From positions 496,001-560,000 of the forward strand of contig NZ_AP018549.1 in assembly GCF_003584685.1 (NCBI RefSeq): a stretch of 64,000 nt of DNA. The letters are read 5' to 3'. The notes below the pieces were generated by a model that saw nothing but the letters and a program-made list of their open reading frames with translations, ran no database searches and was not told the DNA's origin. The first letter of the stretch is position 1. Each line of letters starts with the position of its first letter. This document shows, one piece after another, positions 5,360-53,791 of this stretch. A program made the position numbers and the translations under genes. This DNA is from Lactobacillus paragasseri. Lineage in GTDB: Bacteria > Bacillota > Bacilli > Lactobacillales > Lactobacillaceae.

Positions 5360-6379
5360 ATGAAGAAAGGATTTGTCCAAATTATGATTGGAAAAGAAAC
5401 TCAGCTATGTTTGGTAAATAAATTAGAAAATATACATCACGTTGTTGTTCAGGCTTCAGCAATCGATGGAAATAACGTTTTTGCTTTACAGCTCCTTCAT
5501 AAACAGAGCGATGTTATTGTTTATCAAACTCCAAATGATAGTGAAACTGTGACTTTTAATGAGGATCGTCCAATTTTATACTTGAAAGGACCAAATTCAG
5601 CCGGTACAGCAGGTGGACATACTCAAACTTGGGTACAAAGCGGAGAAAACAATAAGTGGTTTGTAGGTACTAAGCCTAAGCGGCATGGCAATACTTATTG
5701 GACTACTCAAATTGCGCGCGTAGCAGTTTCTGGATATCAAACTCAAACTTTTACCAATAATACTGAATTACCACGACTTTCTTATCTTAACCGAGCAGGC
5801 TCAGGTTATGGTGATGGAAGTGTGGCTTATCCCGGAAAGGATTTAGTTAGGGTAGAAGCAGCTGTTTCACCGAATAGACAATATTTTTTGATTGCAAGTA
5901 TTGACATCAACCATACAGGGCATTTTGCTGTCTATAATCTTGATGAAGTTAATAAAAAACTAGATGAAGCAGAAGAAAAGGCTGAAGATGTCAATATTCA
6001 AAACCTGAATTGTCTAGGCGCGTTTAATGTCCCGCATTTTAATGATCAAAAGATTATTTCAATTCAAGGCTACGGAATTGATGATAATAAGAATATTTAC
6101 ATTTCTAGTCAGCCTAGCCCGCATACAACTTTTTTAGGATTTCCAAAACAAGGCAAACCACGTGAAATTGTTAAAATTCCCTGGGGAATATCCGATCCAA
6201 GTAAATGGTCAGTGGTAAATTTAGACAACAGTTTAAAATTAGATGCACTAAACTTTTGTACTGAATTTGAAGGAATACAAGTAACAAGTGATTGTCTTTA
6301 CTTAACCGTTGCCTATCACCAACGAAACAGTGATTTGACTACTTTGATGAATCGAATATATCAGGTTGAAAAATTTTAG
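5360..6379 (+). CDS. Helveticin J-family class III bacteriocin-like protein
   Basis: A 339-residue protein with the features of the helveticin J family of lactobacilli: LYLKGPNSAGTAGGHTQTW near residue 75, the WFVGTKPKRHGNTYWTTQIARV stretch, the RAGSGYGDGS segment and the late NIYISSQPSP motif. There is no cleavable signal peptide, as for helveticin J, whose route out of the cell is unclear. A GAAGG sequence precedes the ATG. No immunity or export genes adjoin it; a terminator and then a DNA repair gene follow. Antibacterial activity is inferred from the family and many homologues are untested. Confidence 0.85.
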   Translation: MKKGFVQIMIGKETQLCLVNKLENIHHVVVQASAIDGNNVFALQLLHKQSDVIVYQTPNDSETVTFNEDRPILYLKGPNSAGTAGGHTQTWVQSGENNKWFVGTKPKRHGNTYWTTQIARVAVSGYQTQTFTNNTELPRLSYLNRAGSGYGDGSVAYPGKDLVRVEAAVSPNRQYFLIASIDINHTGHFAVYNLDEVNKKLDEAEEKAEDVNIQNLNCLGAFNVPHFNDQKIISIQGYGIDDNKNIYISSQPSPHTTFLGFPKQGKPREIVKIPWGISDPSKWSVVNLDNSLKLDALNFCTEFEGIQVTSDCLYLTVAYHQRNSDLTTLMNRIYQVEKF

Positions 6380-16804: not shown

Positions 16805-18114
16805 CTAATTGCACCAGAAAAGGATTTGCAAGATAAGAAAATTAATGAAGTCTTTGACGATGAATTTTTAAGTCAAACTTCTGGTTATATTGGCAAACAA
16901 TGTTTGCATTTATGCTTTGGGCAAGTGCAATGGAAATGCGTCGTTACTTAATGCGGTTTGTACAGCACGTAGCAACTTTGAAAAATCTATCGTCACTTCG
17001 TTTTACTAAGTACAACCAATACGAAGACTTAATTATGCCTTTGATTAGTTACTTAAAGAAGCATGACGTAAAATTCCATTACGATACAATTGTAGATAAC
17101 ATTATTGTTAACAGAATTGAAGATGAAAAGGTAGCTACGGAAATTAAGATGACTGAGAAGGGTGAGCAAAAAGTTATCAAATTAACGCCTAACGACTTAG
17201 TCTTCGTAACTAATGGCTCAATTACTGAAAGCACAACTTATGGGGACAACACGCACCCAGCTGAACAAAAACATGAGCTTGGACCAAGTTGGCAATTGTG
17301 GAAGAACTTAGCAGCGCAAGATGAAGACTTCGGTCATCCAGAAAAGTTCTGCGAAAATATTCCAGCTGCTAACTGGGTAATTTCAGCTACAGTTACTTTC
17401 ACTAATGATGATATTGTGCCTTACATTGAAAAGGTTAATAAAAAGGATCCACATTCTGGTTCCATTGTAACTAGTGGTCCAACTACGATTAAGGATTCTA
17501 ACTGGTTACTTGGATATTCAATTAGTCGTCAACCACAATTCCATAAGCAAAAGCCAAATGAACTGATTGTTTGGTTATATGGCTTGTATTCAAACACTAA
17601 GGGTAACTATGTCAAAAAGACTATGCCTGAATGTGATGGTATTGAACTTTGCGAAGAATGGCTTTATCACATGGGTGTTCCTGAATCTGAGATTAAGAAG
17701 ATGGCAATTGATGCAACTACGATTCCAAATCATATGCCATATATTACGTCTTACTTCATGCCACGTGCATTAGGCGATCGTCCAAAGGTAGTGCCAAAGA
17801 ATTCCAAGAATTTAGCCTTCATTGGTAATTTTGCTGAAACTGAGAGAAACACTGTCTTTACTACTGAATATTCAGGACGTACTGCTATGGAAGCTGTCTA
17901 CACTTTGCTTAATGTAGACCGCGGTGTTCCTGAAGTATTTGCTTCGGCATTTGACGTGAGAATGTTAATGAATGCAATGTACTATTTAAACGATAGAAAG
18001 AAGTTAACTGAACTAAATTTGCCTTTACCTGAAAAATTGATGGTTAAAGAAGGTTTGAAGAAAGTTAAGGGAACTTACGTTGAAGAATTACTTAAGAAGT
18101 ATAAGTTGATATAG
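16805..18114 (+). pseudogene. Oleate hydratase (MCRA family), truncated and frameshifted
   Basis: The family (about 590 residues, FAD-dependent) adds water to oleic and linoleic acids. Here the first third, including the FAD-binding GxGxxG fold, is gone. A remnant starts at 16805 (LIAPEKDLQDKKINEVFDD), then the frame shifts near 16874-16878 and continues as NFWLYWQTMFAFMLW and the remaining 400 residues to TAG 18112-18114 (RFTKYNQYEDLIMPL, ETERNTVFTTEYSGRTAMEA). The missing bases between SQ and NFW fit loss of one of two AACT repeats. The downstream frame is open and looks little decayed, so inactivation is probably recent. Confidence 0.88.
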
Positions 18115-39146: not shown

Positions 39147-39196
39147 AAAAAGCTAAGTTTACTCGCTGTTTTTTGCGGGAGGCTTAGCTTTTTTAT
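39147..39196 (+). terminator. Terminator of glsA, left copy of a repeated terminator
   Basis: AAAAAGCTAAG and CTTAGCTTTTTT pair around an inner CGCTGTTTTTTGCGGG hairpin. The 49-base element is nearly identical to the one at 43078-43127. Confidence 0.9.
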
Positions 39197-39282
39197 TGTC
39201 CTTACATCGAATATTTTTCAATTAAGCGTATTCAAATTATATTGGTTAAAATATATTTAATACTAAGAAAGGAGTTAGAATC

Positions 39283-40167
39283 ATGCTTATTAAAGATCAA
39301 CTTAGAGAAAAAAAGAATATGAGTAATAATGAAAAAGTTGTTGCAAATTATCTTTTAAAAGCTGATGAAAATATAGAGAAAGATACAGTAAGAACAGTTG
39401 CAGAAAAAACATATACTTCACCATCTACAATTATTAGATTATGTCATAAGCTAGGCTTTACTGGTTTTAGTGATTTTAAAAATAAGTTTTTAAATGAAGT
39501 TAAATATTTTAATTTGCAGTTTCAAAATGTAGACGTAAATTTTCCATTTAGAAGAGAAGATACAGCACGCGAAGTTATGTCTAAAATAACTGATTTATAT
39601 ATTGAGACGATTAAAGATACTGAAAAAGTAGTAGATATGAGAACACTTCTTCGTTGTCGTAAAATTTGTAGCGAAAGTGAGGAAATTCATATTTTTTCCT
39701 ATGGTACTTATTTGAATCAAGCCTATTCCTTTAAAGAAAAGATGATGAAAATTGGAAAGAAGGTTATGATTTCTTCTAATTTGAATTATCAATTGTATGA
39801 AGCAGAAATTATGCAGGCCGGCGATATAGCTATTATAATTTCTTACTCTGGGGAAACGAATAATAGCTTACTTATAGCGAAACAATGCAGGAAAAATAAT
39901 ATACCTACTATTGCTATTACTTCAATTGGAGAAAATGATCTAACAAAGATTTGTGATGAAACTTTATATATTTCTACCAAAGAATCTCTTTATAAAAATA
40001 TTGGGGATTATAGCATTCATTTATCAGTGAGTTATGTGTTAGATGTTTTGTATTCATTAATTTTTCAAAATGACTTTGAGCATTTTTATGAAACTAAGAT
40101 GAATCTAGCAATGTCATTAGAGAAAGATAGAAGATCTAGTAATTCGATTATTGATAATAAAAAATAG
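39283..40167 (+). CDS. MurR/RpiR-family transcriptional regulator
   Basis: A 294-residue regulator with an N-terminal HTH_6 domain (VRTVAEKTYTSPSTIIRLC, residues about 36-54, then GFTGFSDFKNKF) and a SIS sugar-phosphate-binding domain (IHIFSYGTYLNQAY, IIISYSGETNNSLLIAKQC, about 145-215). It likely senses a phosphorylated beta-glucoside. AAAGGAG precedes the ATG. The GH1 and EIIC genes it probably controls follow after a terminator. Its A+T content and codon use (many ATA, AGA) differ from the lac genes, hinting at transfer. Confidence 0.88.
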   Translation: MLIKDQLREKKNMSNNEKVVANYLLKADENIEKDTVRTVAEKTYTSPSTIIRLCHKLGFTGFSDFKNKFLNEVKYFNLQFQNVDVNFPFRREDTAREVMSKITDLYIETIKDTEKVVDMRTLLRCRKICSESEEIHIFSYGTYLNQAYSFKEKMMKIGKKVMISSNLNYQLYEAEIMQAGDIAIIISYSGETNNSLLIAKQCRKNNIPTIAITSIGENDLTKICDETLYISTKESLYKNIGDYSIHLSVSYVLDVLYSLIFQNDFEHFYETKMNLAMSLEKDRRSSNSIIDNKK

Positions 40168-40212
40168 TAGAAGCATAATTAAATATTTAATATTGAAACT
40201 ATGTTTTAAAAA

Positions 40213-40264
40213 ATAAGGCATAAAAGGAAGAATTGTTAGAACAAAATTCCTTTTATGCCTTTTG
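40213..40264 (+). terminator. Intrinsic terminator between the RpiR and GH1 genes
   Basis: AAGGCATAAAAGGAA (40215-40229) and TTCCTTTTATGCCTT (40247-40261) form a perfect 15-bp stem followed by TT. Since the next gene's ribosome binding site is 45 bases on, it may act as an attenuator as well as a terminator. Confidence 0.8.
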
Positions 40265-40306
40265 GCATTGTATGCGCTATCAAAAGACTATAAATTAAAA
40301 ATGTAA

Positions 40307-41722
<1,416 letters not shown>

Positions 41723-41734
41723 TGAGGTGTTATT

Positions 41735-43027
41735 ATGAACAAGTTTATGAGTGTTTTACAAACTAAAGTAATACCTAAAGCCAATAAGATAGCTAGTGAG
41801 AAACACTTATCTGCTCTTAGAGATGCTATGGTTTTAACAATACCATTTATTATTATTGGTTCAATATTTTTGATATTGGCTGATTTTCCAATACCAGCAT
41901 ATCTTTCCTTTTTAAAAGCACATCCTCAAATTCAACAAGCATTGTTATATCCATATAACGCAACATTTAATATTGTTGCATTGATTGCAACATTTGGAAT
42001 GGGATATAAGTTAGGAGAGAGCTATAAAGTTGATGGTATAAGTTCAGGATTGATATCATTAGCAGCGTATTTTTTAGTAATACCAACTAATGCTGTAAAA
42101 ATAGCTAATAATCCAACTACAGTGATTAACACAAATTATTTTAGTAGTGCAGGTCTATTTGTAGGATTAATTATGGCAATAATTTCAACTGAAGTTTATC
42201 ATTTTATAGTTAAGAAAAATATTGTAATAAAAATGCCAGATGGTGTTCCTCCAGCCGTAGCGAAGTCCTTTAATTCAATCATACCTGGATTTTTTGCAGT
42301 TATTGTTATTTGGATAATTAGATTAATTGTAGAAATAACACCTTATAAAAACGTTCAGAACTTAATTCAAAGTATAATTGCACAACCATTAACTAAATTA
42401 GGAACAAGTTTTTGGGGAACTCTGGCAGTATTTTTAATAATTAACTTGTTGTGGTGCATAGGATTACATGGATCAATTATTGCTAATTCCGTAATGTTAC
42501 CTATTTGGCTCTCATTAACTAGCCAAAACGCTGCTGCTTTGGCTGCAGGTCATGCCGTTAAAAATATCGCTTCTGCAGAATTTAGATATATTATATTTGT
42601 TGGTGGATCTGGTGCAACTTTAGGATTGGTTATTGCTATGGCATTCTTTGCAAAAAGTCAGCAATATAAAAAACTTGGAAGATTAAGTCTGGCTCCAAGT
42701 ATTTTCAATATAAACGAACCAGTATTATTCGGTTTCCCGATAGTTTTTAACCCAATTATGTGGATTCCATTTTTATTAATGCCTATTATTACAGTTACTA
42801 TTACCTATTTATCTATGCAATTTGGAATTGTAGGTAAACCTATCGGAGTATTACCTCCTGGTACAACCCCAATGATTATTGGTGGTTATATAATGACTGG
42901 CGGCATTTCTGGTGCTATCTTACAGATTGTAATTTTTATAATTTCATTTTTTGTATATTACCCATTTTTCAAAATTGAAGATAACCTTCAATATAAAAAA
43001 GAAATGGAAGGTGATACTAAAAAGTAA
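41735..43027 (+). CDS. celB: PTS enzyme IIC, cellobiose/beta-glucoside type
   Basis: A 430-residue membrane permease of the lactose/cellobiose PTS family with about ten spans (LSALRDAMVLTIPFIIIGS, FNINEPVLFGFPIVFNP near 325). No IIA or IIB gene lies with it, so it must borrow them from elsewhere in the genome; LacF is not an obvious partner. AGGTG precedes the ATG 12 bases after the GH1 gene. The exact sugar is unknown. Confidence 0.9.
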   Translation: MNKFMSVLQTKVIPKANKIASEKHLSALRDAMVLTIPFIIIGSIFLILADFPIPAYLSFLKAHPQIQQALLYPYNATFNIVALIATFGMGYKLGESYKVDGISSGLISLAAYFLVIPTNAVKIANNPTTVINTNYFSSAGLFVGLIMAIISTEVYHFIVKKNIVIKMPDGVPPAVAKSFNSIIPGFFAVIVIWIIRLIVEITPYKNVQNLIQSIIAQPLTKLGTSFWGTLAVFLIINLLWCIGLHGSIIANSVMLPIWLSLTSQNAAALAAGHAVKNIASAEFRYIIFVGGSGATLGLVIAMAFFAKSQQYKKLGRLSLAPSIFNINEPVLFGFPIVFNPIMWIPFLLMPIITVTITYLSMQFGIVGKPIGVLPPGTTPMIIGGYIMTGGISGAILQIVIFIISFFVYYPFFKIEDNLQYKKEMEGDTKK

Positions 43028-43077
43028 TTGTGTTTAATGATTTATTAAATTAATTTGTTGTTCTATTAATTAAATGT

Positions 43078-43127
43078 AAAAAGCTAAGCTTACCGCTGTT
43101 TTTTGCGGGATGCTTAGCTTTTTTATT
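43078..43127 (+). terminator. Terminator of celB, right copy of a repeated terminator
   Basis: AAAAAGCTAAG / CTTAGCTTTTTT with inner CCGCTGTTTTTTGCGGG, matching the glsA terminator except for about three positions. Confidence 0.9.
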
Positions 43128-43230
43128 ATGCGGTTAAAAGAAATTGTAAATATAAAAATGATCAAATCACAACATTTATTTGATTAAGTTCTGGTATTTA
43201 TATGAATCAATATGATAGATAATAACCATA

Positions 43231-43270
43231 GATATCAATGAAAGCGCTTTGATATAAAAGATATCAATGA
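43231..43270 (+). promoter_or_regulatory. cre site and direct repeats before the GH42 operon
   Basis: TGAAAGCGCTTTGA at 43239-43252 is a cre-like site for CcpA. GATATCAATGA occurs at 43231-43241 and again at 43260-43270, 29 bases apart, overlapping the cre site. The direct repeats suit an AraC-type activator such as the one at 49139, whose sites are usually direct repeats near -35. The assignment is positional. Confidence 0.55.
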
Positions 43271-43313
43271 TAATTGAACACTAAAAAATTTTTTTGAGAA
43301 AGGAGAGAAAAAT

Positions 43314-45848
43314 TTGAAATTTTATTTTATTCAGAACAATGACAATATTGTGATAAATCCATCGCATATTTCAAATCTAATTAAACAAAAATTTTCTCCC
43401 TCAAGTAATTTTGAAATAAAGAGTTTAACGTATAAAGGTGACAAATGGAAACAAACTGATATTAATCAAGATGATGTTGTTATCCTAGGATTAGGTCATT
43501 TATTTAACCCAGAATATGTAAGAGGTGAGATAAAAGCTCAAGTTAGTTATTTCTTGAAGAAAAAAGTTAAAGTCGCTCTCGCAACAGAGTATCGTTATTT
43601 TAATTATTATCGAAATTATTTCGATAAAGATTCCGATGGAATGGCTATTCATAATCTAGCCTGGAAAAATAGATTACCGGTTTTAGATGTATACAGTTTT
43701 CTTAATTCATGGTATTTAAGCGATGTCAGAAAACAGAGTGATTTAGAACCCGTTAAATATAGAGATAATGAACAGCAAATCAAGTCAGGTGTAAAGCAAC
43801 AATTATTTGAAAATTTTATTTCTACTTGGTTATATCGTAAATTTATTAAACCTAATCGCTCTCAATACTTATATGGGGCCTCAATTTATCCTGAAGTATG
43901 GAGTGATGAAATCAATGAAGAAGATATGGACCATATGGAAAAAATTGGTTTTAATACGGTTCGAATTGGTGAATTTTTCTGGAGTAAATTAGAACCAGAA
44001 GAAAACCACTATGATATGGAATATCTTCGAAACTTATTAGAGAAATTAAAGAGACATCATCTTAAAGTGATCTTGGGAATCCCTTCCCCAACGCCTCCAA
44101 GATGGTTTACATTACATTATCCTGAAGCACGAGTGGTTAATAAAGATGGTCAAGTTGATGAACATGGATCAAGACAACATGTTTGTACGAATAATTTGGT
44201 TTTTAGAAAAAAAGTTTATCAACTAACTAAAAAAATTGCAGCAGTTGCTAATGATTTTGACAACATTGTTGCTATTCAAATTGATAATGAATTTAAATGT
44301 CATGTAGACCAGTGTTTTTGTGAATCGTGTAAGAAATTATGGCCGAGATGGTTAAAAGAAAAATACGGAATAATTGAAAATCTAAACAAGTCTTGGGGAA
44401 CAAATTTATGGAGTGAAAGATATCCTAATTTCGATTCGGTAGTAATGCCGACTAAAACGCCATTTACTCATAATACCGGATTAGAAAATGCTTTTGCTGA
44501 TTTTACTGCTGATACAGTTAATGATTTTGCTTCTGGAATAATTCAAATATTAATTGATAATACAAAAATTCCAATAACTCATAATTCGTCGATGAACTTT
44601 AACTTGAATAACTTTGAATTATTTAATCAGCTGGATATCGCAGGCTACGATACTTATCCAAGGTTTGATCAATACTGGAACTTTCCAATTAATCTTGATT
44701 TGTTTAGAAATGTAAAAGATACTAGTAACTTTTATTTGCTAGAAACGTGTACTTCACATGTTGGATATATAGGTAATTATGTTCCACCTTACTCTAAAGG
44801 ATATTTACCTGTAGAGGTATTTTTAGGATATGCAGCAGGGTTAAATTCGATTTTGTATTGGCCTTATCGTGGGCAACGTGTTGGTGTTGAACAAACGCAC
44901 AGCGCAGTTGTTACACAAGCAGGAACACCAGATCTTGGTTATGAGGATGTCTTAAAAGGTGAACAGATTTTAAACAGAATAAAACCAATATTAAAAGAAA
45001 CTACGGTTCGAAAAGCAAAAGTAGCAATAATTTATTCTGATGAAACTAAACGTAAGATGAATACAGAATCGGGTGGAATATATCAATATCGTCCAACGTT
45101 TACGGAAGTATATGAAGCAATTACAAGACTTGGAATATCAGTTGAAGTAATTCAACCAAATGCTGATTTTAGTGAGTTTAATTGCATTATTGCTCCGTAT
45201 ATTCGGTCAGTTGACCAAGATTTATTAAATAAATTTAAGTACTTTTCTGAGAACGGAGGTGAATTAATTTTAGGACCTTTAACAGGAGATAGAACGGTTG
45301 AAGGAAATTGGCATAATAATGATAACGGGTTAGGGCAACTAGGAATTTGGCTAGGTGTAAAAAATGTCGTCCAATATCTTTCTAGTGAGGATAAAACTGC
45401 GGCTAGAGTTCAAGTAGATAAAAAAGAGGATAGATTTAGTGGTTTAGTAACTTTATTTGATACCGATCATGAAATGAAGGATGTAAGAACAATTGCACCA
45501 GTTGCCGGAAACCGATCAATTACTTATCAAAATAAAAATGTAATCTATATAGGCGGAATGCCAGAAGATTGTATGAAAAGTTGTTTTTGGGATTATGTAA
45601 TTGATAAATATATTAAAACAAACAGTGAGCAAATTATTGAACAAATGGACGATGGTATCTATAAATATGAACGAGAAAATGATGACTTCGTGTATATATT
45701 TATTGCCAATATGTCTGATAAAAGTAGGAATATACGAGTAGATAAAGAAAATATACTTAACGAAAATAATGAAAAAATAAGTGTAGGATTACATAAATTT
45801 GAACCATATACATATCGAATTTTTAAAATTAAGAAAGAGAGGAAATAA
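43314..45848 (+). CDS. GH42 beta-galactosidase with an extra N-terminal domain
   Basis: Glycoside hydrolase family 42 enzyme releasing galactose from beta-galactosides, often galactan side-chain oligosaccharides. The GH42 part starts near residue 186 (YLYGASIYPEVW) and holds acid/base Glu326 (IQIDNEF), nucleophile Glu477 (YLLETCTS), and the zinc cysteines Cys329, 334, 336 and 339. The trimerisation and C-terminal domains follow. Residues 1-185 are an extension not present in standard GH42 (about 690 residues against 844 here), which I do not recognise. TTG start with AAGGAGAG 10 bases upstream. First gene of a four-gene operon; no signal peptide. Confidence 0.9.
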   Translation: MKFYFIQNNDNIVINPSHISNLIKQKFSPSSNFEIKSLTYKGDKWKQTDINQDDVVILGLGHLFNPEYVRGEIKAQVSYFLKKKVKVALATEYRYFNYYRNYFDKDSDGMAIHNLAWKNRLPVLDVYSFLNSWYLSDVRKQSDLEPVKYRDNEQQIKSGVKQQLFENFISTWLYRKFIKPNRSQYLYGASIYPEVWSDEINEEDMDHMEKIGFNTVRIGEFFWSKLEPEENHYDMEYLRNLLEKLKRHHLKVILGIPSPTPPRWFTLHYPEARVVNKDGQVDEHGSRQHVCTNNLVFRKKVYQLTKKIAAVANDFDNIVAIQIDNEFKCHVDQCFCESCKKLWPRWLKEKYGIIENLNKSWGTNLWSERYPNFDSVVMPTKTPFTHNTGLENAFADFTADTVNDFASGIIQILIDNTKIPITHNSSMNFNLNNFELFNQLDIAGYDTYPRFDQYWNFPINLDLFRNVKDTSNFYLLETCTSHVGYIGNYVPPYSKGYLPVEVFLGYAAGLNSILYWPYRGQRVGVEQTHSAVVTQAGTPDLGYEDVLKGEQILNRIKPILKETTVRKAKVAIIYSDETKRKMNTESGGIYQYRPTFTEVYEAITRLGISVEVIQPNADFSEFNCIIAPYIRSVDQDLLNKFKYFSENGGELILGPLTGDRTVEGNWHNNDNGLGQLGIWLGVKNVVQYLSSEDKTAARVQVDKKEDRFSGLVTLFDTDHEMKDVRTIAPVAGNRSITYQNKNVIYIGGMPEDCMKSCFWDYVIDKYIKTNSEQIIEQMDDGIYKYERENDDFVYIFIANMSDKSRNIRVDKENILNENNEKISVGLHKFEPYTYRIFKIKKERK

Positions 45849-45850
45849 AA

Positions 45851-47290
45851 ATGGATGCAATGAGTGATCAACAGCCGTTGGCTGTAAAAGTTAATGGTGG
45901 AAAACCAATACCTAAGTTTGGTTTAAGAGATAAAATTGGTTACGCTTTTGGTGATGTAGGTACTACCTTTTTAATGGGTATTTTAGCCTCATTTGAATCA
46001 ATTTACTTTACTAACGTTTTGGGAATTTCGCCAGTTATTAGCGGGACAATCTTATCGGTTACAACAATTGTTGGTGCATTTACTGATTTAGCCGTTGGTA
46101 GAATGGCAGATAAACGTCATTTAGGAAAGAAAGGTCGTTTTCATCCTTGGATTAAATCAATGAAGTGGGCATTAGGATTGTCAGTTTTGCTAATCTATAT
46201 GCCGTTTATTCAAAGTTGGTCAATGGGAGCAAAGATTACATATATTTCATGTGCAAGTATTTTCTATATTGCTTGTTTATCTGCATTTAATATCCCTTAT
46301 GGATCTTTAGCTGCTGCTATTAGTTCTGATCCAGATGATAGAACGTCTCTTTCAATTTATCGTAGTGTAGGTTCTGCTATTGGTGCTGGTGGTACAGGAT
46401 TTGTTTTACCATATCTTGTTTATACGACCTCTAAGACAGGACAGCAAATTTTATCTGGTACTCGTTTATTCTACTGTGCTATTGGTTGTTTTGTATTAGC
46501 AATGATCTGCTACACAATTATGTACACCTTAACTACTGAAAGAGTTGTGGTTGAACATAAAAATCCTGTTAAGGGTGGAAAACTAGCCGCTTCATTATTT
46601 AAGGACCGTGCACTAATTTCATTCTTAGCAGCAGAAATTGTCATTGTTTTATCAACGAGTTTTTCATCATTCTTAACTACTTATATGTTTTCAACTTACT
46701 TCCAAAGTAAGCAAGCTTTATCAATTGCATTATTGTTTAACTATGCCAATACTATTGTTCTTTCATTCTTTGCAAAACCATTAGCTTCAAAATTTGGTAA
46801 GAAAAAGATTGTTTCAATTGCCTTATTTATGTCGTCAATTTTGTATTTAGTTGTTTACATTATGCAAATCCATAATGTATGGCTTTACTTAGTTTTAAGT
46901 TTCTTTACTACATTATGTTTCTCTATGTTTAATATTATGACTTGGGCCTTTATGACTGACGTTATTGACTACCATCAATATGTTTCAGGGATGCGTGAAG
47001 ACGGGACTATTTATAGTGTAAATATGTTTGGACGTAAAATTGCACAAACTTTGAATTCATTCTTTAGTGGTGCAATTTTGACAGCAATTGGTTATAAGGC
47101 ATCAACAACTGGTAGTTTGACACAATCACCAGAGGTTCTAAGAGGAATTTACGCTTTGGCAACATTAGTTCCATTTGTTTTATTAATGATTGGTGCTTTG
47201 ATCTTAACTTTCTGGTATCCATTAAGTAAAAAAGAATTAGAGAAAGTATCCGCAAAATTAAAGGTGGTTAATAAGACTAATAAAGAATAG
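45851..47290 (+). CDS. GPH-family sugar:cation symporter, copy 1
   Basis: A 479-residue, 12-span glycoside-pentoside-hexuronide carrier (MelB/XynP type) importing oligosaccharides with Na+ or H+. Signatures include GYAFGDVGTTFLMG in span 1, DLAVGRMADKRHLGKKGRFHPW in the 2-3 loop (the cation-site Asp), and ISSDPDDRTSLSIYRS in the middle. GAGAGG precedes the ATG, which lies 2 bases after the GH42 stop. Short alpha- or beta-galactosides from pectin are likely cargo, from context. Confidence 0.9.
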   Translation: MDAMSDQQPLAVKVNGGKPIPKFGLRDKIGYAFGDVGTTFLMGILASFESIYFTNVLGISPVISGTILSVTTIVGAFTDLAVGRMADKRHLGKKGRFHPWIKSMKWALGLSVLLIYMPFIQSWSMGAKITYISCASIFYIACLSAFNIPYGSLAAAISSDPDDRTSLSIYRSVGSAIGAGGTGFVLPYLVYTTSKTGQQILSGTRLFYCAIGCFVLAMICYTIMYTLTTERVVVEHKNPVKGGKLAASLFKDRALISFLAAEIVIVLSTSFSSFLTTYMFSTYFQSKQALSIALLFNYANTIVLSFFAKPLASKFGKKKIVSIALFMSSILYLVVYIMQIHNVWLYLVLSFFTTLCFSMFNIMTWAFMTDVIDYHQYVSGMREDGTIYSVNMFGRKIAQTLNSFFSGAILTAIGYKASTTGSLTQSPEVLRGIYALATLVPFVLLMIGALILTFWYPLSKKELEKVSAKLKVVNKTNKE

Positions 47291-47302
47291 AGAAGAGATA
47301 AA

Positions 47303-48142
47303 ATGAGATATTTTTCACAAAAAATAAACTCACCACTTTCTGAAAAAGCAGTATTAGATTGCTATATTCAAAACACAGAGAAATGTGCTCAAGGCAGGAA
47401 GAGACCAGCAATTATTATTTGCCCAGGTGGTGGCTATGAAGAAATTGCTGATCGAGAAGGTGAGCCAATTGCAATTAAGATGATGTCTTATGGATTTCAG
47501 TCTTTTGTATTGAACTATAGCCTAACGCCAGCCCATTTTCCAATAGCCTTAACTGAACTAAGCACTGCAATAGAATATGTTAGAAAAAATGCTAAAGAAT
47601 TTCATATTGATCCAGATGCTATTTGGGTAGCGGGATTTTCTGCTGGAGGTCATTTGGCGGCTAGCTTAGGAGTTTATTGGCATACTGATTTTCTGCAAAA
47701 ATATGGTTATCAAGCCGAAGGAATTAAACCTAATGGATTATTGCTTGGTTACCCTGTAATTACAGCAGGTAAGTATGCTCACCGTGGATCAATTGTTAAT
47801 TTGCTAGGTAAAGACAAAGCAAATGAAATTGAGTATTTAAATGAAGTATCTTTAGAGTTGCATGTAGATAGATTTACCCCACCAAGTTTCATTTGGCATA
47901 CAGCAACAGATGATGTTGTACCTGTAAATAATAGCTTAATGTTTGCGAATGCTTTGAAACAAAATGATGTTAAATTTGATTTGACCATTTATCCAGAAGG
48001 TGGTCATGGATTAAGTTTGGGGACTATTGAAACAGCCCATAAAAGTGGTCACGATATTGTTCCTTGCGTAACAAATTGGCCAGAAAAATTTGTTGAATTT
48101 GCTAAAAATGTAGGAAATACCTTTCTGAGTGAAAGCAAATGA
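47303..48142 (+). CDS. Alpha/beta-hydrolase, BD-FAE/xylan-esterase-like
   Basis: A 279-residue intracellular esterase. The oxyanion loop is ICPGGGYEEIADREGEPIA (about 39-57), nucleophile Ser113 in GFSAGGHLAAS, Asp in TDDVVPVNNS and His in EGGHGLSL, a complete triad. Relatives remove acetyl or feruloyl groups from plant polysaccharide fragments. It overlaps the next esterase gene by 4 bases (ATGA), so both are translated together. Deacetylation of imported sugars is likely from context. Confidence 0.86.
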   Translation: MRYFSQKINSPLSEKAVLDCYIQNTEKCAQGRKRPAIIICPGGGYEEIADREGEPIAIKMMSYGFQSFVLNYSLTPAHFPIALTELSTAIEYVRKNAKEFHIDPDAIWVAGFSAGGHLAASLGVYWHTDFLQKYGYQAEGIKPNGLLLGYPVITAGKYAHRGSIVNLLGKDKANEIEYLNEVSLELHVDRFTPPSFIWHTATDDVVPVNNSLMFANALKQNDVKFDLTIYPEGGHGLSLGTIETAHKSGHDIVPCVTNWPEKFVEFAKNVGNTFLSESK

Positions 48143-49092
48143 TTATGTTAACTAATTTAGATAAGTATAAAAATTATAAGGGAGTCGGTGAAAGACCAAA
48201 AGATTTTGACAAGATTTGGAATCAAGGGAAAAGAAAAGTAGACGAAATAGGTTTTGATTATGAACTGCAAAAAGTAAGTGAGCCTTCAAATATTGTAGAT
48301 TTTTATCATTTATATTTTTATGGAATCGGTGGAGCCAAAATTCATGCTCAGCTAATTGCCCCTAAAAAATTAATTGGTAAGCATGCTGGACTATTGTACT
48401 TTCATGGTTATCATTGTAGTGCAGGTGATTTTGAAGATAAAGTTGGTTGGGCAGCTGAAGGATTTATTGTTCTTGCTTTAGATTGTCGCGGACAAGGAGG
48501 TTTATCTGAGGATAATGTTTCTGTAAAAGGAGATATTATGAATGGACTAATTATACGTGGCGTTGAAGAGTGGAATCCAGAGAAACTATACTTTTATCGC
48601 CAGTTTTTAGATACTTACCAAGCTGCAAACATTCTCATGAATATGACTCATGTTGATGAAAAGAAAATATTCATTAAAGGAATTTCACAAGGTGGTGGTT
48701 TAGCACTAGCATGTGCAGGCTTAGTACCAGAAACTTATAAAGTTCAAGTTGCGTATCCATTTTTATCAGACTATCGAAAAGCATATCAGTATGGACCAAC
48801 GACAGCTTTTGGTGAATTATCTTATTGGTTTCATTATCGCGATCCTCTTCATAAAAAAGAAAAAGATCTATTTAATCTTTTAGATTATATCGATGTTAAA
48901 TTCTTTGCTGATAAAATAAAAGCTCAAGTGTTGTGGGAAATGGGTGGTTCGGATAAACAGGTCCCTCCTGAAACACAAATGGCTGCTTTTAATCGGATTA
49001 CGTCTAAAAAGAAGATTTATTTGGCTCCAGAATATGGACATGAATTTATTCCTCGATTAGGTGATGAAATTAGAGACTTCTTTTTCAAATAA
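48139..49092 (+). CDS. AXE1/CE7-like acetyl esterase
   Basis: A 317-residue hydrolase of the acetylxylan esterase/cephalosporin C deacetylase family. Motifs: YFHGYHCSAGDF (oxyanion), LDCRGQGG (the RGQ motif), nucleophile Ser183 in GISQGGGLAL, and triad Asp and His in MGGSDKQVPP and EYGHEF. These cytosolic enzymes strip acetyl groups from imported oligosaccharides. It is last in the GH42 operon. ATG 48139 overlaps the upstream stop; ATG 48145 is an alternative. Confidence 0.88.
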   Translation: MIMLTNLDKYKNYKGVGERPKDFDKIWNQGKRKVDEIGFDYELQKVSEPSNIVDFYHLYFYGIGGAKIHAQLIAPKKLIGKHAGLLYFHGYHCSAGDFEDKVGWAAEGFIVLALDCRGQGGLSEDNVSVKGDIMNGLIIRGVEEWNPEKLYFYRQFLDTYQAANILMNMTHVDEKKIFIKGISQGGGLALACAGLVPETYKVQVAYPFLSDYRKAYQYGPTTAFGELSYWFHYRDPLHKKEKDLFNLLDYIDVKFFADKIKAQVLWEMGGSDKQVPPETQMAAFNRITSKKKIYLAPEYGHEFIPRLGDEIRDFFFK

Positions 49093-49094
49093 AA

Positions 49095-49122
49095 TGTAAG
49101 CGAATACATCTTATGCTACAAT
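49095..49122 (+). promoter_or_regulatory. cre site and extended -10 promoter of the AraC gene
   Basis: TGTAAGCGAATACA (49095-49108) fits the CcpA consensus well. TGCTACAAT gives an extended -10 (TACAAT 49117-49122). The cre site covers the -35 position, so glucose would repress the regulator itself. Confidence 0.65.
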
Positions 49123-49138
49123 TAAATTGTAACTATAG

Positions 49139-49963
49139 ATGAAAAGCGTAGATAAGATGAGTATAAAATTCAATTCTTCAGAAAGCGAATATCCACTAAA
49201 GTTTTATGATATCGGATTAAAGTGGGTACAACATAAAGTTTATCGTCCTCATGGATTCAGATATTATCATTGGCTTCAAACAGATAAAGGTACTGGTTTT
49301 ATAAAAATCGGTCAAAAAATAATCAAATTATCTCCCCATCAAGGTTTCCTAATGAGACCATATACTCCCTATTCTTGCTATCCTGATACAGATCAAATTT
49401 GGATAACATCATTTTTAACTTTTGAAGGAACAATGATTGATTCCATGGCATCATTTCTTGACTTAAATGAATTTCAAATTTATCAGGATCTTGATAAAAA
49501 TCTGGAGAATTTTATTGAGAATAATTACAAGTCATTTACAACGTATGATTATTTATCTTCATTAGAACAATCTACCTTAATTTATACATTTTTGATGTAT
49601 TTAAAGCGTAATGCCTATATTAATGAATTGGATTTTTCGCAAAGTAAAATAGTCAATAAAATTATTGAGTACATTAGACTTCATTATCAAGAAAAAATAA
49701 GTAATGAGATGCTTGCATCACTTAGTGGTTATTCTATCCCTCACACTGTAAGATTATTTAAAGCCGAAGTTGAGGTTACTCCAATGGAATATTTAACACG
49801 TTTTCGCTTGAGAATGGCTAAGACACTGGTAGATTTTAAGCCAGAGATTAGTATTGATGAAATAGCCTCGTTAGTTGGCTACTCGAATATTTCTTACTTT
49901 ATTCAACAGTATAAAAAGATGTTTCAAACAACTCCTGGGCAGGAACGACATCATGTTTTATAA
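49139..49963 (+). CDS. AraC-family regulator of the pectin locus
   Basis: A 274-residue regulator with an N-terminal cupin (YRPHGFRYYHWLQTDKGTG and LSPHQGFLMRPYTPYSC, about 35-80) and the C-terminal double helix-turn-helix (NKIIEYIRLHYQEKIS, LSGYSIPHTVRLFKAE, EIASLVGYSNISYFIQQYKKMFQTTPGQER). No ribosome binding site precedes ATG 49139, and the promoter leaves only about a 10-base leader; ATG 49157 is possible. It sits between the GH42 and PL4 units and probably activates both in response to a galactose-containing fragment. Confidence 0.88.
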   Translation: MKSVDKMSIKFNSSESEYPLKFYDIGLKWVQHKVYRPHGFRYYHWLQTDKGTGFIKIGQKIIKLSPHQGFLMRPYTPYSCYPDTDQIWITSFLTFEGTMIDSMASFLDLNEFQIYQDLDKNLENFIENNYKSFTTYDYLSSLEQSTLIYTFLMYLKRNAYINELDFSQSKIVNKIIEYIRLHYQEKISNEMLASLSGYSIPHTVRLFKAEVEVTPMEYLTRFRLRMAKTLVDFKPEISIDEIASLVGYSNISYFIQQYKKMFQTTPGQERHHVL

Positions 49964-49984
49964 AGTAATATTTTAATTATATAT

Positions 49985-50017
49985 AAAAGCCAATCATATT
50001 ATGTTTGGCTTTTTTAT
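49985..50017 (+). terminator. Terminator between the AraC and PL4 genes
   Basis: AAAAGCCAATCA and TGTTTGGCTTTTTT pair around TATTA. The PL4 ribosome binding site starts only 2 bases further, so read-through past this hairpin is needed unless a promoter lies within it. Confidence 0.8.
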
Positions 50018-50031
50018 TAGGAGAAAATGCC

Positions 50032-51723
50032 ATGTTATCTAAATTAAAAGACCACATAGAAGATAGTAATAAAGAATTATCTTTAAGCAATAATGAAGTA
50101 CAAATAACTTTCACTAAACAAGGCTATGTCACAAAGCTACTGTATAAAGGAAAAAATGTCTTAGAAGACTTAGCAGGTGAACCTCATGATCGCGATAAAA
50201 ATTATAGTTTCTATTGCGATTATCATATGGATGGAAAAACAAGACATATGCATATTGATCAAACAAAAACTATTGAAAATAATGATCAGATGATTCATGT
50301 GGCGTTTATTGATTCAAAAAGTGAACTTGGAATTGAATATCATATTATTTTGAAAAATAACGATTCTGGCATTTATTCGTATGTTAAGGCATGGAACAAT
50401 ACTGATCATCCCTTGAAAGTAAATGAATTAAGAACTGTTTATCGTTTTAATCAAGGCTTGTTTAATTGGAGTACTAATGGAGTTCGATTCGGCAGACAAC
50501 CTTCATCAAAGGAAATGCTGAGAGGTAAAAAATTCCAAGATGAAACTTATAGGATGAAGCGGGGAGCTTTATTTTCAAACAGTCAGATTTATTCCAAATA
50601 TGATTATGCTGGTTACTATAAAGATACAGATTTCTGGGGACAAGCAGGAAATAATTTTGGTGCATGGCTAATTACACCAAATAAATCTTTTTATGGTTCA
50701 GGCCCGTTAAATCAAGATCTTATGATTCATTATGATGGATTAATCTTGAATTACTTATTTAGTGAACATTTTGGTAAGGGACTGAATGTTCTGCCAACTG
50801 ACTTTAAGAAAATGTATGGACCATGGTGTCTCTATTTAAATAATGGCTCATTTGAAGATGTAGTAAAAAGAAGCAAGAAAGAAAAACAGGCTTGGCCATA
50901 TTCCTGGTTGGATGATCTAGATTATCCGTTAGAGTTAAGCGATGTTGTTGGTCAGATTAGTTCAGCTGTTTCTAAAAAATATGAAATTATTTTGATTAGT
51001 AATACTAAGGATAAAAAGACATTTATCGAGCAACAAAATTCTAATACCTATTACGTTGAGACAGATAAAAATGGAAAATTTAGTTTAAAAAATATTCGAC
51101 CAGATAGCTATTCCTTATATGCTTACGCTTTAGATGGTACAGATCTTGATGAACATTTATTGATAAAAGATATTTCAATCAATCAAAGAAAGATTGATTT
51201 AGGAGAATTTGAAATTCATCCATCTACAAAATCTATTTGGCAAATTGGTTATCCTTCACACACAACCGATGGATTTAAGTATAGTGATCAGCTACGTAAT
51301 TATGTTTGGCAAGAATTAGTGCCTAACAATTTAACATATCGGATTGATAAAAATGATGACTGGTATTATCTCCAAAATGATAGTGGGAAATGGAATATTG
51401 AATTTTCTTCTAATAATTTATCTAATAAAAATTTATTACTTAAGGTTGCGTTAGCAGGAGCAACGCAAAAACAAATGGATCAAGGAAATGGGGTCCTGAT
51501 TAATATCAATTTAAATGGAAAAAAGATTTTTTCTGAAAGATTTGAAAATGATCGGGCTGCATATCGTTCAGCCTTAAAGAGTGGAAGATATCATCTGATA
51601 ATAGTGCTGATTACTTATAATCAACTAAAGCAAAATCAAGTTAATACTATTAGTTTTACTACTGATGGATATTTAATGTATGACGCAATCCAGTTAGGAG
51701 AGGAGTGTAAAAGCAATGAATAA
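50032..51723 (+). CDS. PL4-family rhamnogalacturonan lyase, intracellular
   Basis: A 563-residue protein of polysaccharide lyase family 4, which cleaves the rhamnose-galacturonic acid backbone of RG-I pectin by beta-elimination. The N-terminal beta-sandwich (LSLSNNEVQITFTKQGYV to about 300; GNNFGAWLITPNKSFYGSGPLNQDLM), a fibronectin-like middle (VGQISSAVSKKYEIIL to about 390) and a carbohydrate-binding third domain (SIWQIGYPSHTTDGFKYSD to the end) match the three-domain plan. It lacks a signal peptide, so it would act on imported oligosaccharides. Starts at ATG 50032 after AGGAGA; overlaps the next gene by 8 bases. Confidence 0.85.
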   Translation: MLSKLKDHIEDSNKELSLSNNEVQITFTKQGYVTKLLYKGKNVLEDLAGEPHDRDKNYSFYCDYHMDGKTRHMHIDQTKTIENNDQMIHVAFIDSKSELGIEYHIILKNNDSGIYSYVKAWNNTDHPLKVNELRTVYRFNQGLFNWSTNGVRFGRQPSSKEMLRGKKFQDETYRMKRGALFSNSQIYSKYDYAGYYKDTDFWGQAGNNFGAWLITPNKSFYGSGPLNQDLMIHYDGLILNYLFSEHFGKGLNVLPTDFKKMYGPWCLYLNNGSFEDVVKRSKKEKQAWPYSWLDDLDYPLELSDVVGQISSAVSKKYEIILISNTKDKKTFIEQQNSNTYYVETDKNGKFSLKNIRPDSYSLYAYALDGTDLDEHLLIKDISINQRKIDLGEFEIHPSTKSIWQIGYPSHTTDGFKYSDQLRNYVWQELVPNNLTYRIDKNDDWYYLQNDSGKWNIEFSSNNLSNKNLLLKVALAGATQKQMDQGNGVLININLNGKKIFSERFENDRAAYRSALKSGRYHLIIVLITYNQLKQNQVNTISFTTDGYLMYDAIQLGEECKSNE

Positions 51724-53287
51724 AAAAAAGATAAAATTGCAAAAATTAGCAATAGGCGGAGAAAATGCAAAGATCCCTATGTGGCGTAAATTAGGGTTTT
51801 CGGCATTTCAAATGTCTAATATTATGATGACCTTGGTCACAACATGGTTGATGTATTACTACACTACATTTTTGAAAGTGCCAATTGTTACTGTAACTTT
51901 GATGTTTACGACAGCCAAAATTATTGGAGCAATTATTACACCAATTTATGGCTATTTTTCAGATCGTTTATATCAAACAAAATTTGGACGTAAACACGGT
52001 AGACGCAAATCAATGTTTCTAATTGGCGTACCACTTAAGGCGATTACTTATATCGTGATGTGGATACCAGGATTAACAACGCCATTTTATTTCATTTTCT
52101 TTATGCTGTATTTCCTTGTAACACCAATGCTTTCTACCTCTCAATTAACTTTGACTTCAGAAATGTCAGAAAGTTCTGGGCAAAGAGCACAATTAGTTGG
52201 CTTTAATCAAGCGGGGAGTGCAATTGCTGGTATCTTTGGTTCTTTATTCATTGCTTGGATTTTTAAGCTTTGCGGTCAAAACAATCTAAAAAGTTTTGTA
52301 ATTGCAGCAATTATTTATGACATTATCGGTACTATTATGCTGATTATTTTCTATAATTCCGTTTATGAAAGACCAGTCGATGAATCAACTATTCTTGAAA
52401 ATAATAAACTAGGATTGTGGGAGAGATTAGTTAATATTTTTTGGAATTTCTTCAGTGCAATCAAGAATAGATCTTATTGGACTTATGTATTAATGTGGCA
52501 GAGTGAAGAACTTTTTAGAACAATTCGTGGTGACATTAATACTTACTTTATTATTTTTGTATTGTTATTAACGCCATCGGATGTTGCGGTCTCAACTAGT
52601 GTTGGTTTCTTCTTTGGTATTTTGTTTTTACTATTCTTTATGTGGTTGCAGAGCAAGACAAATGGGATGCTCTCATATCGTATCGGTGCCTGGGCAGGAA
52701 TTGCTGTCTTTTTGTTCATCGGATGCTTGGCTATCTTTAGACCAGCACATTTAAGTTTATGGTGGATTGTGGCAATGATTGCATTAAACTTCGGTATTAC
52801 TGGAGTTGTTAATTCATCACAATATATTTTTACTTTTATTCCAGATATTGACGAGATGGTAACTTCGAAGCGTCGAGAAGGTGAATTTGCAGGTATTAAT
52901 ACAACTTTAGATACGGTTTTAGATTCTCTGTTCACCTTAATTGTAGGTGTTGTTTTGCAAGTTACTGGATTTAAACCAGGCGCAAAAATTCAGTCAGCTA
53001 CAACAGTAAATGCGTTGATGATTTTATATATAGCTGTCCCAATTTGCTTGTTATTGTTAGGAATTGCTTTTTCTTATATTTGTAAATTAAATGTTGAAAA
53101 TCATACGATTATTTTGAATGAAATTAAGAGATTACGTAATGGTGGTTCAATGAGAGAAGTTACCCCAGAAACTAAGAAAGTAGTAGAAGATCTTACTGGT
53201 TTTAAGTATGAGAACTGCTGGGGTAATAATGATGTGATGAATTATCGAAAGAGTAGGAAAAAGTCGAAAGAGATAGAAATGAATTAA
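51716..53287 (+). CDS. GPH-family sugar:cation symporter, copy 2
   Basis: A 523-residue MFS carrier of the GPH family. It has the span-2/3 loop YFSDRLYQTKFGRKHGRRKSM, a late cytoplasmic DIDEMVTSKRREGEFAGIN and a charged tail of about 70 residues. The start overlaps the PL4 gene by 8 bases after GGAGAGGAG, so the pair is coupled. It probably imports the rhamnogalacturonan oligosaccharides cleaved by PL4. It is only distantly similar to copy 1, which suggests different cargo. Confidence 0.88.
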   Translation: MNKKKIKLQKLAIGGENAKIPMWRKLGFSAFQMSNIMMTLVTTWLMYYYTTFLKVPIVTVTLMFTTAKIIGAIITPIYGYFSDRLYQTKFGRKHGRRKSMFLIGVPLKAITYIVMWIPGLTTPFYFIFFMLYFLVTPMLSTSQLTLTSEMSESSGQRAQLVGFNQAGSAIAGIFGSLFIAWIFKLCGQNNLKSFVIAAIIYDIIGTIMLIIFYNSVYERPVDESTILENNKLGLWERLVNIFWNFFSAIKNRSYWTYVLMWQSEELFRTIRGDINTYFIIFVLLLTPSDVAVSTSVGFFFGILFLLFFMWLQSKTNGMLSYRIGAWAGIAVFLFIGCLAIFRPAHLSLWWIVAMIALNFGITGVVNSSQYIFTFIPDIDEMVTSKRREGEFAGINTTLDTVLDSLFTLIVGVVLQVTGFKPGAKIQSATTVNALMILYIAVPICLLLLGIAFSYICKLNVENHTIILNEIKRLRNGGSMREVTPETKKVVEDLTGFKYENCWGNNDVMNYRKSRKKSKEIEMN

Positions 53288-53501: not shown

Positions 53502-53612
53502 GTGATATCTTTCGCTATTGCGGTAAGTATTATCTTAGGTGCTCTTGGAACATGTGCCATACGTATCGCAAAAGCTTACGCAATAATAAAAAAAGCTAAT
53601 CACAAGGATTAG
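53502..53612 (+). CDS. Hydrophobic 36-residue peptide, possible type I toxin
   Basis: GTG 53502 opens a frame of 36 codons: a 22-residue hydrophobic span (ISFAIAVSIILGALGTCAI) and a basic tail (RIAKAYAIIKKANHKD). This is the layout of small membrane toxins of type I systems. The ribosome binding site is unclear: GGAGAG lies 12 bases upstream, while a much stronger GGAGGTGG (53451-53458) serves an ATG at 53465 in another frame that overlaps this one and ends at 53599. A frame disturbance or translational coupling are both possible. The stop lies in the stem of a minus-strand terminator. Confidence 0.4.
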   Translation: MISFAIAVSIILGALGTCAIRIAKAYAIIKKANHKD

Positions 53613-53690
53613 CTAAACTCAAAAGTCATCTTAAGTTACGATTGGAGTTAGTGACTCGCACTCACTAGCTCCTTTTCTTTTACAATTATA
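53594..53690 (-). ncRNA. Possible antisense RNA opposite the peptide gene
   Basis: On the minus strand a TATAAT (53690-53685) is followed downstream by a stem-loop and, at 53614-53594, by an 8-bp hairpin AGCTAATC/GATTAGCT with a long T run, an intrinsic terminator in that direction only. This would give an RNA of about 80-90 bases overlapping the 3' end of the peptide mRNA. No convincing -35 is seen. Existence is inferred. Confidence 0.35.
53645..53680 (+). terminator. Plus-strand terminator of the peptide locus
   Basis: GGAGTTAGTGA and TCACTAGCTCC form an 11-position stem (one G-U) around CTCGCAC, followed by TTTTCTTTT. It lies 32 bases after the peptide stop. Confidence 0.75.
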
Positions 53691-53791
53691 CACTAAAAAG
53701 TTCATTTATGGTGTGAAAGCGTATGTAAAAATCATATATGATAAATTAAGTGGTAAAATAATAAAAAACATTAATGGAAATAGGAGTAAAA

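Follow-up and report, generated by a model that had tools for sequence, protein, structure and literature searches.

A predicted cytosolic rhamnogalacturonan lyase in a Lactobacillus paragasseri genome without matches to four backbone-pathway families, and its possible role in scavenging pectin side chains

The DNA considered here, called the window, is a stretch of 64,000 nucleotides from Lactobacillus paragasseri (G000:C1:496001-560000), whose genome is a single contig of 1.94 Mb with a completeness of 99.96%. Seven consecutive open reading frames (ORFs) on the + strand fill its positions 43314-53287 and make up a cassette with a galactosidase, two carriers, two esterases, a regulator and a lyase of family PL4, predicted to cut rhamnogalacturonan I (RG-I). 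The point of most interest is a gap that the initial annotation of this DNA had left open: the steps expected after the lyase are without a match in the whole genome, and the same gap recurs in seven other PL4 carriers. The gene families which that annotation had named at these positions are borne out by the ORFs and by Pfam and NCBIfam searches, with the start of the lyase moved to the ATG at 50032. The genes and the elements around them are as follows.

43079..43124, + strand: terminator-like hairpin (fold of -25.2 kcal/mol for 43071-43140) that splits the cassette from an upstream RpiR/GH1/cellobiose-type phosphotransferase system (PTS) unit
43238..43253, + strand: near-consensus catabolite-responsive element (cre)-like, CcpA-type site ATGAAAGCGCTTTGAT upstream of GH42, found by eye and matched by none of the three patterns run
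43314..45848, + strand: GH42 beta-galactosidase, 844 amino acids (PF02449, 321 bits; PF08532, 73.6 bits), with a TTG start and an AGGAG-type ribosome site
45851..47290, + strand: GPH1, a GPH-family carrier adjoining GH42, 479 amino acids (PF13347, 218 bits; TIGR00792, 229.0 bits against a cut-off of 231.35)
47303..48142, + strand: carboxylesterase of the BD-FAE/lp_1002 type, 279 amino acids, with a GFSAG motif (PF20434, 93.5 bits; esterase matches in PDB)
48139..49092, + strand: CE7/AXE1 acetylesterase, 317 amino acids, with GISQG at residue 181 (PF05448, 298 bits; acetylxylan esterase 7xmj, E 2.8e-108)
49094..49108, + strand: cre-like site between CE7 and AraC, the sole match of WTGNAANCGNWNNCW on both strands of the window
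49139..49963, + strand: AraC-family regulator, 274 amino acids (PF12833, 62.4 bits; PF02311, 35.8 bits)
49985..50015, + strand: terminator- or attenuator-like hairpin with a T run in the gap between AraC and PL4, kept in G148
50032..51723, + strand: PL4 rhamnogalacturonan lyase, 563 amino acids (PF14683 and PF14686; PF06045 on the N-terminal half; predicted fold)
51716..53287, + strand: GPH2, the PL4-associated GPH carrier, 523 amino acids (PF13347, 121 bits; TIGR00792, 101.9 bits, under the cut-off of 231.35)

The assignment of the lyase to PL4, weak by sequence, is secured by a predicted structure. The most likely start of the protein is the ATG at 50032 and not the TTG at 50005, because there is an AGGAG at 50019 and the TTG is part of the hairpin at 49985-50015. 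In G148, a genome of a second species, the orthologous ORF begins at the ATG matching 50032. The whole protein gave no Pfam match to a catalytic domain at E 0.001, and only domains II and III were found (fn3-like and carbohydrate-binding-module-like; PF14683 and PF14686, both over cut-off). When the N-terminal half was scanned alone, PF06045 reached 26.5 bits (cut-off 22.8) and PF09284 stayed at 18.8, under its cut-off of 27.2. A profile of 18 PL4 homologues finds the Aspergillus aculeatus lyase with an E of 7.9e-05, mainly over the C-terminal domains. The AlphaFold model, made from 20 sequences, has a pLDDT of 87.8 and a pTM of 0.88; an earlier model from 7 sequences (pLDDT 65.8) was left out of the structure searches. 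The best match of the model from 20 sequences is the A. aculeatus rhamnogalacturonan lyase 2xhn, with a Z of 29.5 and a root-mean-square deviation of 2.9 over 475 aligned residues at 16% identity, and Foldseek pairs it with 3njx at an E of 3.1e-32. The next fold family, the PL26 exo-rhamnogalacturonan lyase, reaches a Z of 20.3 over 255 residues and covers the catalytic part only. The predicted fold settles the PL4 call, and a chance or partial domain match was rejected on the same basis.

The A. aculeatus lyase (PL4; 1nkg, 2xhn, 3njx) is a secreted enzyme. It shares with the window protein a three-domain fold and a catalytic lysine and histidine, although it is fungal and distant in sequence, at the identity given above. 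The PDB titles of its structures name K150A and H210A mutants, and these two residues align with K189 and H246 of the window protein (K198 and H255 when counted from the TTG at 50005), which are invariant in 20 of 20 aligned rows from 16 genomes. The stretch of the profile alignment that gives the K150/H210 pairing scores low (-0.3 bits). All of this is consistent with K189 and H246 as the predicted catalytic pair and does not prove it. The lyase also appears to be cytosolic. A crude hydropathy scan found no signal-like N-terminus in GH42, the two esterases or PL4 (best 15-residue windows of 0.14-0.76), in keeping with the earlier statement that these proteins have no signal peptides, which stands for these four soluble enzymes. 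The second PL4 of Pelosinus (L016) reaches 2.46 in the same scan, an evident signal-like start. Since that N-terminus is so strongly hydrophobic, the PL4 family has both secreted-like and signal-less members.

If the lyase cuts the RG-I backbone, enzymes for the use of its products could be expected. The initial annotation had found no GH105 in the window, and the absence extends to the 1.94-Mb genome, in which a search for GH105 and uronate catabolism gave no match to GH88/105 (PF07470), KduI (PF04962) or the KDPG/KDG aldolase (PF01081); unsaturated-uronyl hydrolases of other families were not searched. RhaA (PF06134) is without a match as well. To say that the pathway would be incomplete in the window was thus too modest, with all four families lacking a match genome-wide. 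Of 14 control genomes, between 3 and 8 had a match to each of the four.

The same gap is seen in relatives. A single-protein query found PL4 in 5 of 301 sampled Lactobacillaceae genomes, a profile query found it in 8 of 75 genomes of the genus, and one alignment against a contig collection gave 13 loci. Once duplicates were merged, with Stammera and Enterobacter plasmid matches left out, these come to 16 distinct genomes, including that of the window (labels such as G148 and L008 are our handles for genomes and loci). GH88/105, KduI and RhaA were searched in 15 of the 16. None of the three is found in seven genomes (G000, which is that of the window, G148, L008, L009, L010, L011 and L020), and all three are found in six (G099, G241, L012, L013, L015 and L016). 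The mixed genomes are G213, with RhaA only, and L019, with GH105 only. The sixteenth genome, G349, was searched for GH105 and RhaA only and has neither. This means that seven of the 15 PL4 genomes other than the window's are without GH105 and RhaA, and the six of these tested for KduI are also without it. With the genome of the window, they are the eight lyase-only genomes of the following text. A galactokinase is found over cut-off in all eight.

Some limits apply to these counts. In four of the six KduI-positive genomes the matches are of 82-98 bits only and may be other members of PF04962. The aldolase PF01081 has no match in G000, G148, L011 and L020 and is present in the other 11 of the 15. 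The absences in L008 (= G361, 66% complete) and L009 (= G339, 93% complete) are weaker because the genomes are incomplete. In the genus as a whole, GH88/105 is found in 10 of 75 genomes and RhaA in 6 of 75, with one of each below cut-off. Given this base rate, being without GH105 and RhaA is normal for the genus, and the presence of PL4 without them is the unusual part; seven of the eight PL4 carriers in the genus have neither.

In the lyase-only genomes, PL4 is part of one of two architectures. The first, found in the window, G148 and L. hamsteri (L011), has GH42, GPH1, two esterases, AraC, PL4 and GPH2, with GPH1 at the front in L. hamsteri. The second, found in L008, L009, L010, L020 and G349, has a GH2 galactosidase, a third kind of GPH carrier, a protein of 827-835 amino acids, a ROK kinase, PL4 and GPH2. 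Its tail carries a GDSL gene (L008-L010) and/or a GH51-like gene (L008, L010, L020 and G349); the locus in L009 ends before the GH51 position. All eight PL4 loci thus have a galactosidase, three of them of GH42 and five of GH2, and four of the five GH2-type loci have a GH51-like gene. The 827-835-residue protein (L010:6466-8949; L008, L009, L020, L056) is next to the ROK kinase and PL4 in all five of the lyase-only loci of the GH2 type. It gave no Pfam match over cut-off in the three copies searched and no PDB match in the one searched, and is a candidate new carbohydrate enzyme. As the missing hydrolase it was rejected, having no match in the genome of the window.

In the PL4 tree, the rows of the eight lyase-only genomes group together (94/94, slightly short of the star limit), and the neighbour of this clade is the first PL4 of L012. 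A second clade holds L012, L014 and L017 (also with GH105 and RhaA) and L018. Unlike the PL4 tree, the GPH2 tree places L012, which has GH105 and RhaA, among the lyase-only rows (97/93). A GPH2-clade carrier lies beside PL4 in 13 of the 16 genomes, the exceptions being L013, L018 and L019, and in the window the start of GPH2 overlaps the stop codon of PL4. PF13347 is over cut-off in both carriers and the TIGR00792 cut-off is missed by both, and GPH1 forms a clade of its own in the GPH tree. Against carriers of Rahnella, GPH2 shows 29-30% identity. One of these (H26) is annotated as an oligogalacturonide transporter, and its gene adjoins annotated exopolygalacturonate lyase and oligogalacturonate porin genes. 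RhiT and LacS, two carriers that are taken up again below, are members of the GPH family.

The galactosidase has both the TIM barrel and the trimerisation domain of GH42 over cut-off (PF02449 and PF08532), and Bga 6lvw matches it at an E of 1.3e-66. It also has about 185 additional residues at its N-terminus (window 43314-43870), as the best GH42 matches in PDB start at residues 178-188; scanned alone, this stretch has no Pfam match. At E 1e-60, GH42 with this stretch is found in 4 of the 301 family genomes (G000, G148 and G038, and G099 from residue 48), and two further GH42 matches in the 301 are without it. A full-length match in L. hamsteri is 62% identical. The stretch is common to G148, L. 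hamsteri and G038, and G099 has most of it. As for the esterases, NF052620 scores 189.5 bits on the BD-FAE/lp_1002-type enzyme, below its cut-off of 300. The other has the AXE1 domain and a GxSxG motif, as expected of CE7, and its start overlaps the stop codon of the preceding esterase gene.

The locus is a mobile cassette, a 10.2-kb block, and not one fixed unit. Window positions 43078-53271 match G148 at 92.8% identity over 10.2 kb, with the match ending at both edges, and the genes that flank the block, to a distance of about 5 kb on each side, differ between the two. Whole-cassette spread by plasmids was rejected, with no near match of the whole cassette in the plasmid collection. The ratios of nonsynonymous to synonymous substitution (dN/dS) against G148 range from 0.008 to 0.249 for the seven genes (for CE7, over the first 277 codons only), and the synonymous distance (dS) varies several-fold among the genes (0.08-0.57), which suggests recombination. 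The six genes other than CE7 are open in the window, G148 and L. hamsteri. For these six, open frames and dN/dS of at most 0.249 led to the rejection of the cassette as a decaying relic, a rejection that does not cover CE7.

The left edge of the block is the hairpin at 43079..43124 (the blastn match starts at 43078). The upstream RpiR/GH1/PTS genes (39283-43027) were rejected as members of the locus, with this terminator-like hairpin in between and their position outside the shared block. A terminator-like element of about 51 nucleotides occurs twice, at 94% identity, once before RpiR (39147-39197) and once before the cassette (43078-43130). The hairpin at 49985-50015 folds at -11.5 kcal/mol in the window and -15.8 kcal/mol in G148, is weaker than the one at 43079-43124, and was not among the matches of a separate pattern scan. 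The cre-like site ATGAAAGCGCTTTGAT at 43238..43253 is called by its nearness to the cre consensus, and the one at 49094..49108 by the cre pattern WTGNAANCGNWNNCW. A promoter scan was uninformative, with 39 promoter-like sites against a mean of 57.7 in shuffles, i.e., fewer than in shuffled sequence. Beyond the cassette, an intergenic element of 117 nucleotides (53576-53692) is 97% identical in G148 (L059:19571-19687), where it lies outside the shared cassette. No more pectin genes were found among 20 further ORFs of the window scanned at E 1e-10; with the ten of the first Pfam search, 30 of the 45 ORFs of at least 180 amino acids were scanned. Elsewhere in the window, an oleate hydratase-like (MCRA) ORF at 16900-18114 covers only positions 165-495 of the profile; inspection by eye shows no upstream ORF of at least 40 amino acids that clearly supplies its start, and the gene looks truncated or broken. 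A Helveticin J-like bacteriocin gene (PF17312) is found at 5360-6379.

Several known systems can be compared with the cassette. Like the rhiE-rhiT-rhiN genes of Dickeya/Erwinia (PMC3870299), it has a rhamnogalacturonan lyase, a dedicated rhamnogalacturonide carrier and an AraC-type regulator. The same account has RhiE secreted, whereas the PL4 of the window is cytosolic by prediction; and there the unsaturated galacturonyl hydrolase RhiN and the rha genes complete the pathway, whereas PF07470 and PF06134 have 0 matches here. The GH42 half is like lacA-lacS-lacR of L. plantarum, which for galacto-oligosaccharides combines an intracellular GH42 with a GPH permease and has a regulator next to them (PMC7728778). 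The likeness is at the level of gene families, and the operon as outlined there has no PL4. PL4 homologues also occur on small plasmids of Stammera capleta (15 Stammera records, 30-36% identity over 55-98% of the protein), where, unlike here, they are made by a symbiont for its beetle host. Stammera species are reported to include RG-I lyase producers (PMC12905250), and the plasmid genes may encode that lyase. Among the literature matches listed, judged by titles and abstract openings, none deals with a PL4 of Lactobacillus.

On this evidence, we see about an even chance that the locus is a mobile cassette for the scavenging of RG-I side chains, which imports galactosylated RG-I fragments, harvests the galactose, and cuts the backbone without catabolising the products. 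The genes themselves, the PL4 fold, the conserved predicted catalytic residues, the lack of backbone-pathway matches, the galactokinase and the recurring gap in the PL4 clade are its basis. Four families without a match, and a gap that recurs in other PL4-carrying lactobacilli, leave backbone use unsupported and favour side-chain scavenging. The substrate would be RG-I fragments that other microbes have made, short, carrying galactose and probably acetylated. They would enter via the GPH carriers, the acidic backbone-containing fragments perhaps by GPH2 and neutral galactosides by GPH1. One or both esterases may take off acyl groups where needed, GH42 would free galactose for the Leloir pathway, and the PL4 enzyme is predicted to cleave the rhamnose-galacturonic acid (Rha-GalA) backbone by beta-elimination in the cytosol. 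The unsaturated GalA-Rha pieces would not be catabolised and would most likely be expelled, possibly by exchange of product for substrate on GPH2. We infer the substrate, its acetylation, the order of steps, the direction of transport and the fate of the backbone from the setting of the genes. The bacterium probably uses only the attached galactose as food, and the remainder is discarded. When gut and bee lactobacilli use pectin, the usual account is that they take side-chain oligosaccharides which others have released. Acetylated RG-I oligosaccharides with arabino- and galacto-oligosaccharide chains do exist, in a mixture that supports the growth of lactobacilli; RG-I is a minor part of it, hence context and not proof (PMC9319371). 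The LacS carrier of L. delbrueckii is described as swapping lactose for galactose (PMC4082628), which makes an exchange on GPH2 plausible, no more.

A number of observations weigh against the scavenging cassette. CE7 is open in the window, but in-frame stops interrupt it near residue 278 in G148 (L059:9955-10902), before the region of the catalytic histidine, and near residue 27 in L. hamsteri (L011:8100-9038), the only two relatives found with the same cassette. Either CE7 is not needed or, less likely, sequence errors struck twice in one gene. CE7 deacetylation is not conserved, with draft errors a possibility. Of the import, deacetylation, side-chain removal and backbone cleavage inside the cell that the initial annotation proposed, import, galactose removal and backbone cleavage remain the best reading, and deacetylation is weakened by these stops. 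In G038, AraC (50%), GH42 and GPH1 are followed by another GPH and by a protein recognised by eye as of the SGNH type, and the genome is outside the five PL4-positive ones of the single-protein search. The GH42 half is therefore separable, and the two halves may serve different substrates. None of the seven genes encodes an endogalactanase, and it is PL4 that shows the highest dN/dS among them (0.249). Three lyase-only genomes, L008-L010, have the PF01081 aldolase, and other enzymes could replace the missing steps, as the four families do not span every route. The possible exchange on GPH2 is one that we purely infer. As for the fold, the PL26 match (20.3) is barely over GH38 mannosidase rows (18.9), and PL26 is outside the Foldseek top 50.

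Three other explanations were weighed. It is unlikely that the locus holds two independent systems without a joint pathway, one of GH42, GPH1, the esterases and AraC for (acetylated) galactosides and one of PL4 and GPH2, a pair acquired on its own. The G038 locus would fit this, as would the interrupted CE7 of both relatives, the hairpin that divides the cassette between AraC and PL4, the other partners that PL4/GPH2 has elsewhere, and the GH42-GPH pair of L. plantarum, which serves higher galacto-oligosaccharides (PMC7728778). However, the whole 10.2 kb is one block in two species with different neighbours, and L. hamsteri likewise keeps the seven genes together, in a different order.

Full use of RG-I, with backbone products catabolised by enzymes of unrecognised families in a pathway that is complete but unfamiliar, is unlikely. 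All eight lyase-only genomes have open frames for PL4 and GPH2, with dN/dS against G148 of 0.25 and 0.04, and the 827-835-residue protein without a Pfam match and the ROK kinase beside PL4 in GH2-type loci mean that unfamiliar enzymes occur in such settings. Against this, that protein has no match in the genome of the window (one genome, in a search with no positive control), the cassette has nothing unassigned but the N-terminal stretch of GH42, and several steps would need replacing together (GH88/105, KduI, RhaA and PF01081 are all without a match). It is very unlikely that the PL4-like enzyme acts on a different rhamnose/uronate glycan, such as a plant or bacterial exopolysaccharide. The 16% structural identity to the solved lyase and the lack of a catalytic-domain Pfam match on the whole protein would allow it, but the predicted catalytic pair and three-domain fold are kept, PL4 is the best fold match by a wide margin, the linked GPH2 is related to a pectic transporter gene, and in 6 of 15 genomes PL4 occurs together with GH105, RhaA and KduI, as expected for RG-I.

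The scavenging cassette, should it be real, has consequences beyond this genome. A wider claim, tentative and rather doubtful, is that in a clade of lactobacilli a cytosolic RG-I lyase is kept for harvesting and not for catabolism, cutting the backbone only to free or unload the side-chain sugars, with the unsaturated pieces antiported via the cognate GPH carrier and feeding neighbours that have GH105 and the rhamnose pathway. This wider claim would amount to a “sugar stripping” within the cell, in which product antiport drives the removal of sugars from an acidic polysaccharide. If scavenging is true, these bacteria take up charged pieces of backbone only to waste them, and one would expect an exported metabolite that can be measured as well as cross-feeding. 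The PL4 clade with GPH2 but without GH105 would then be a clean genetic marker for RG-I scavengers.

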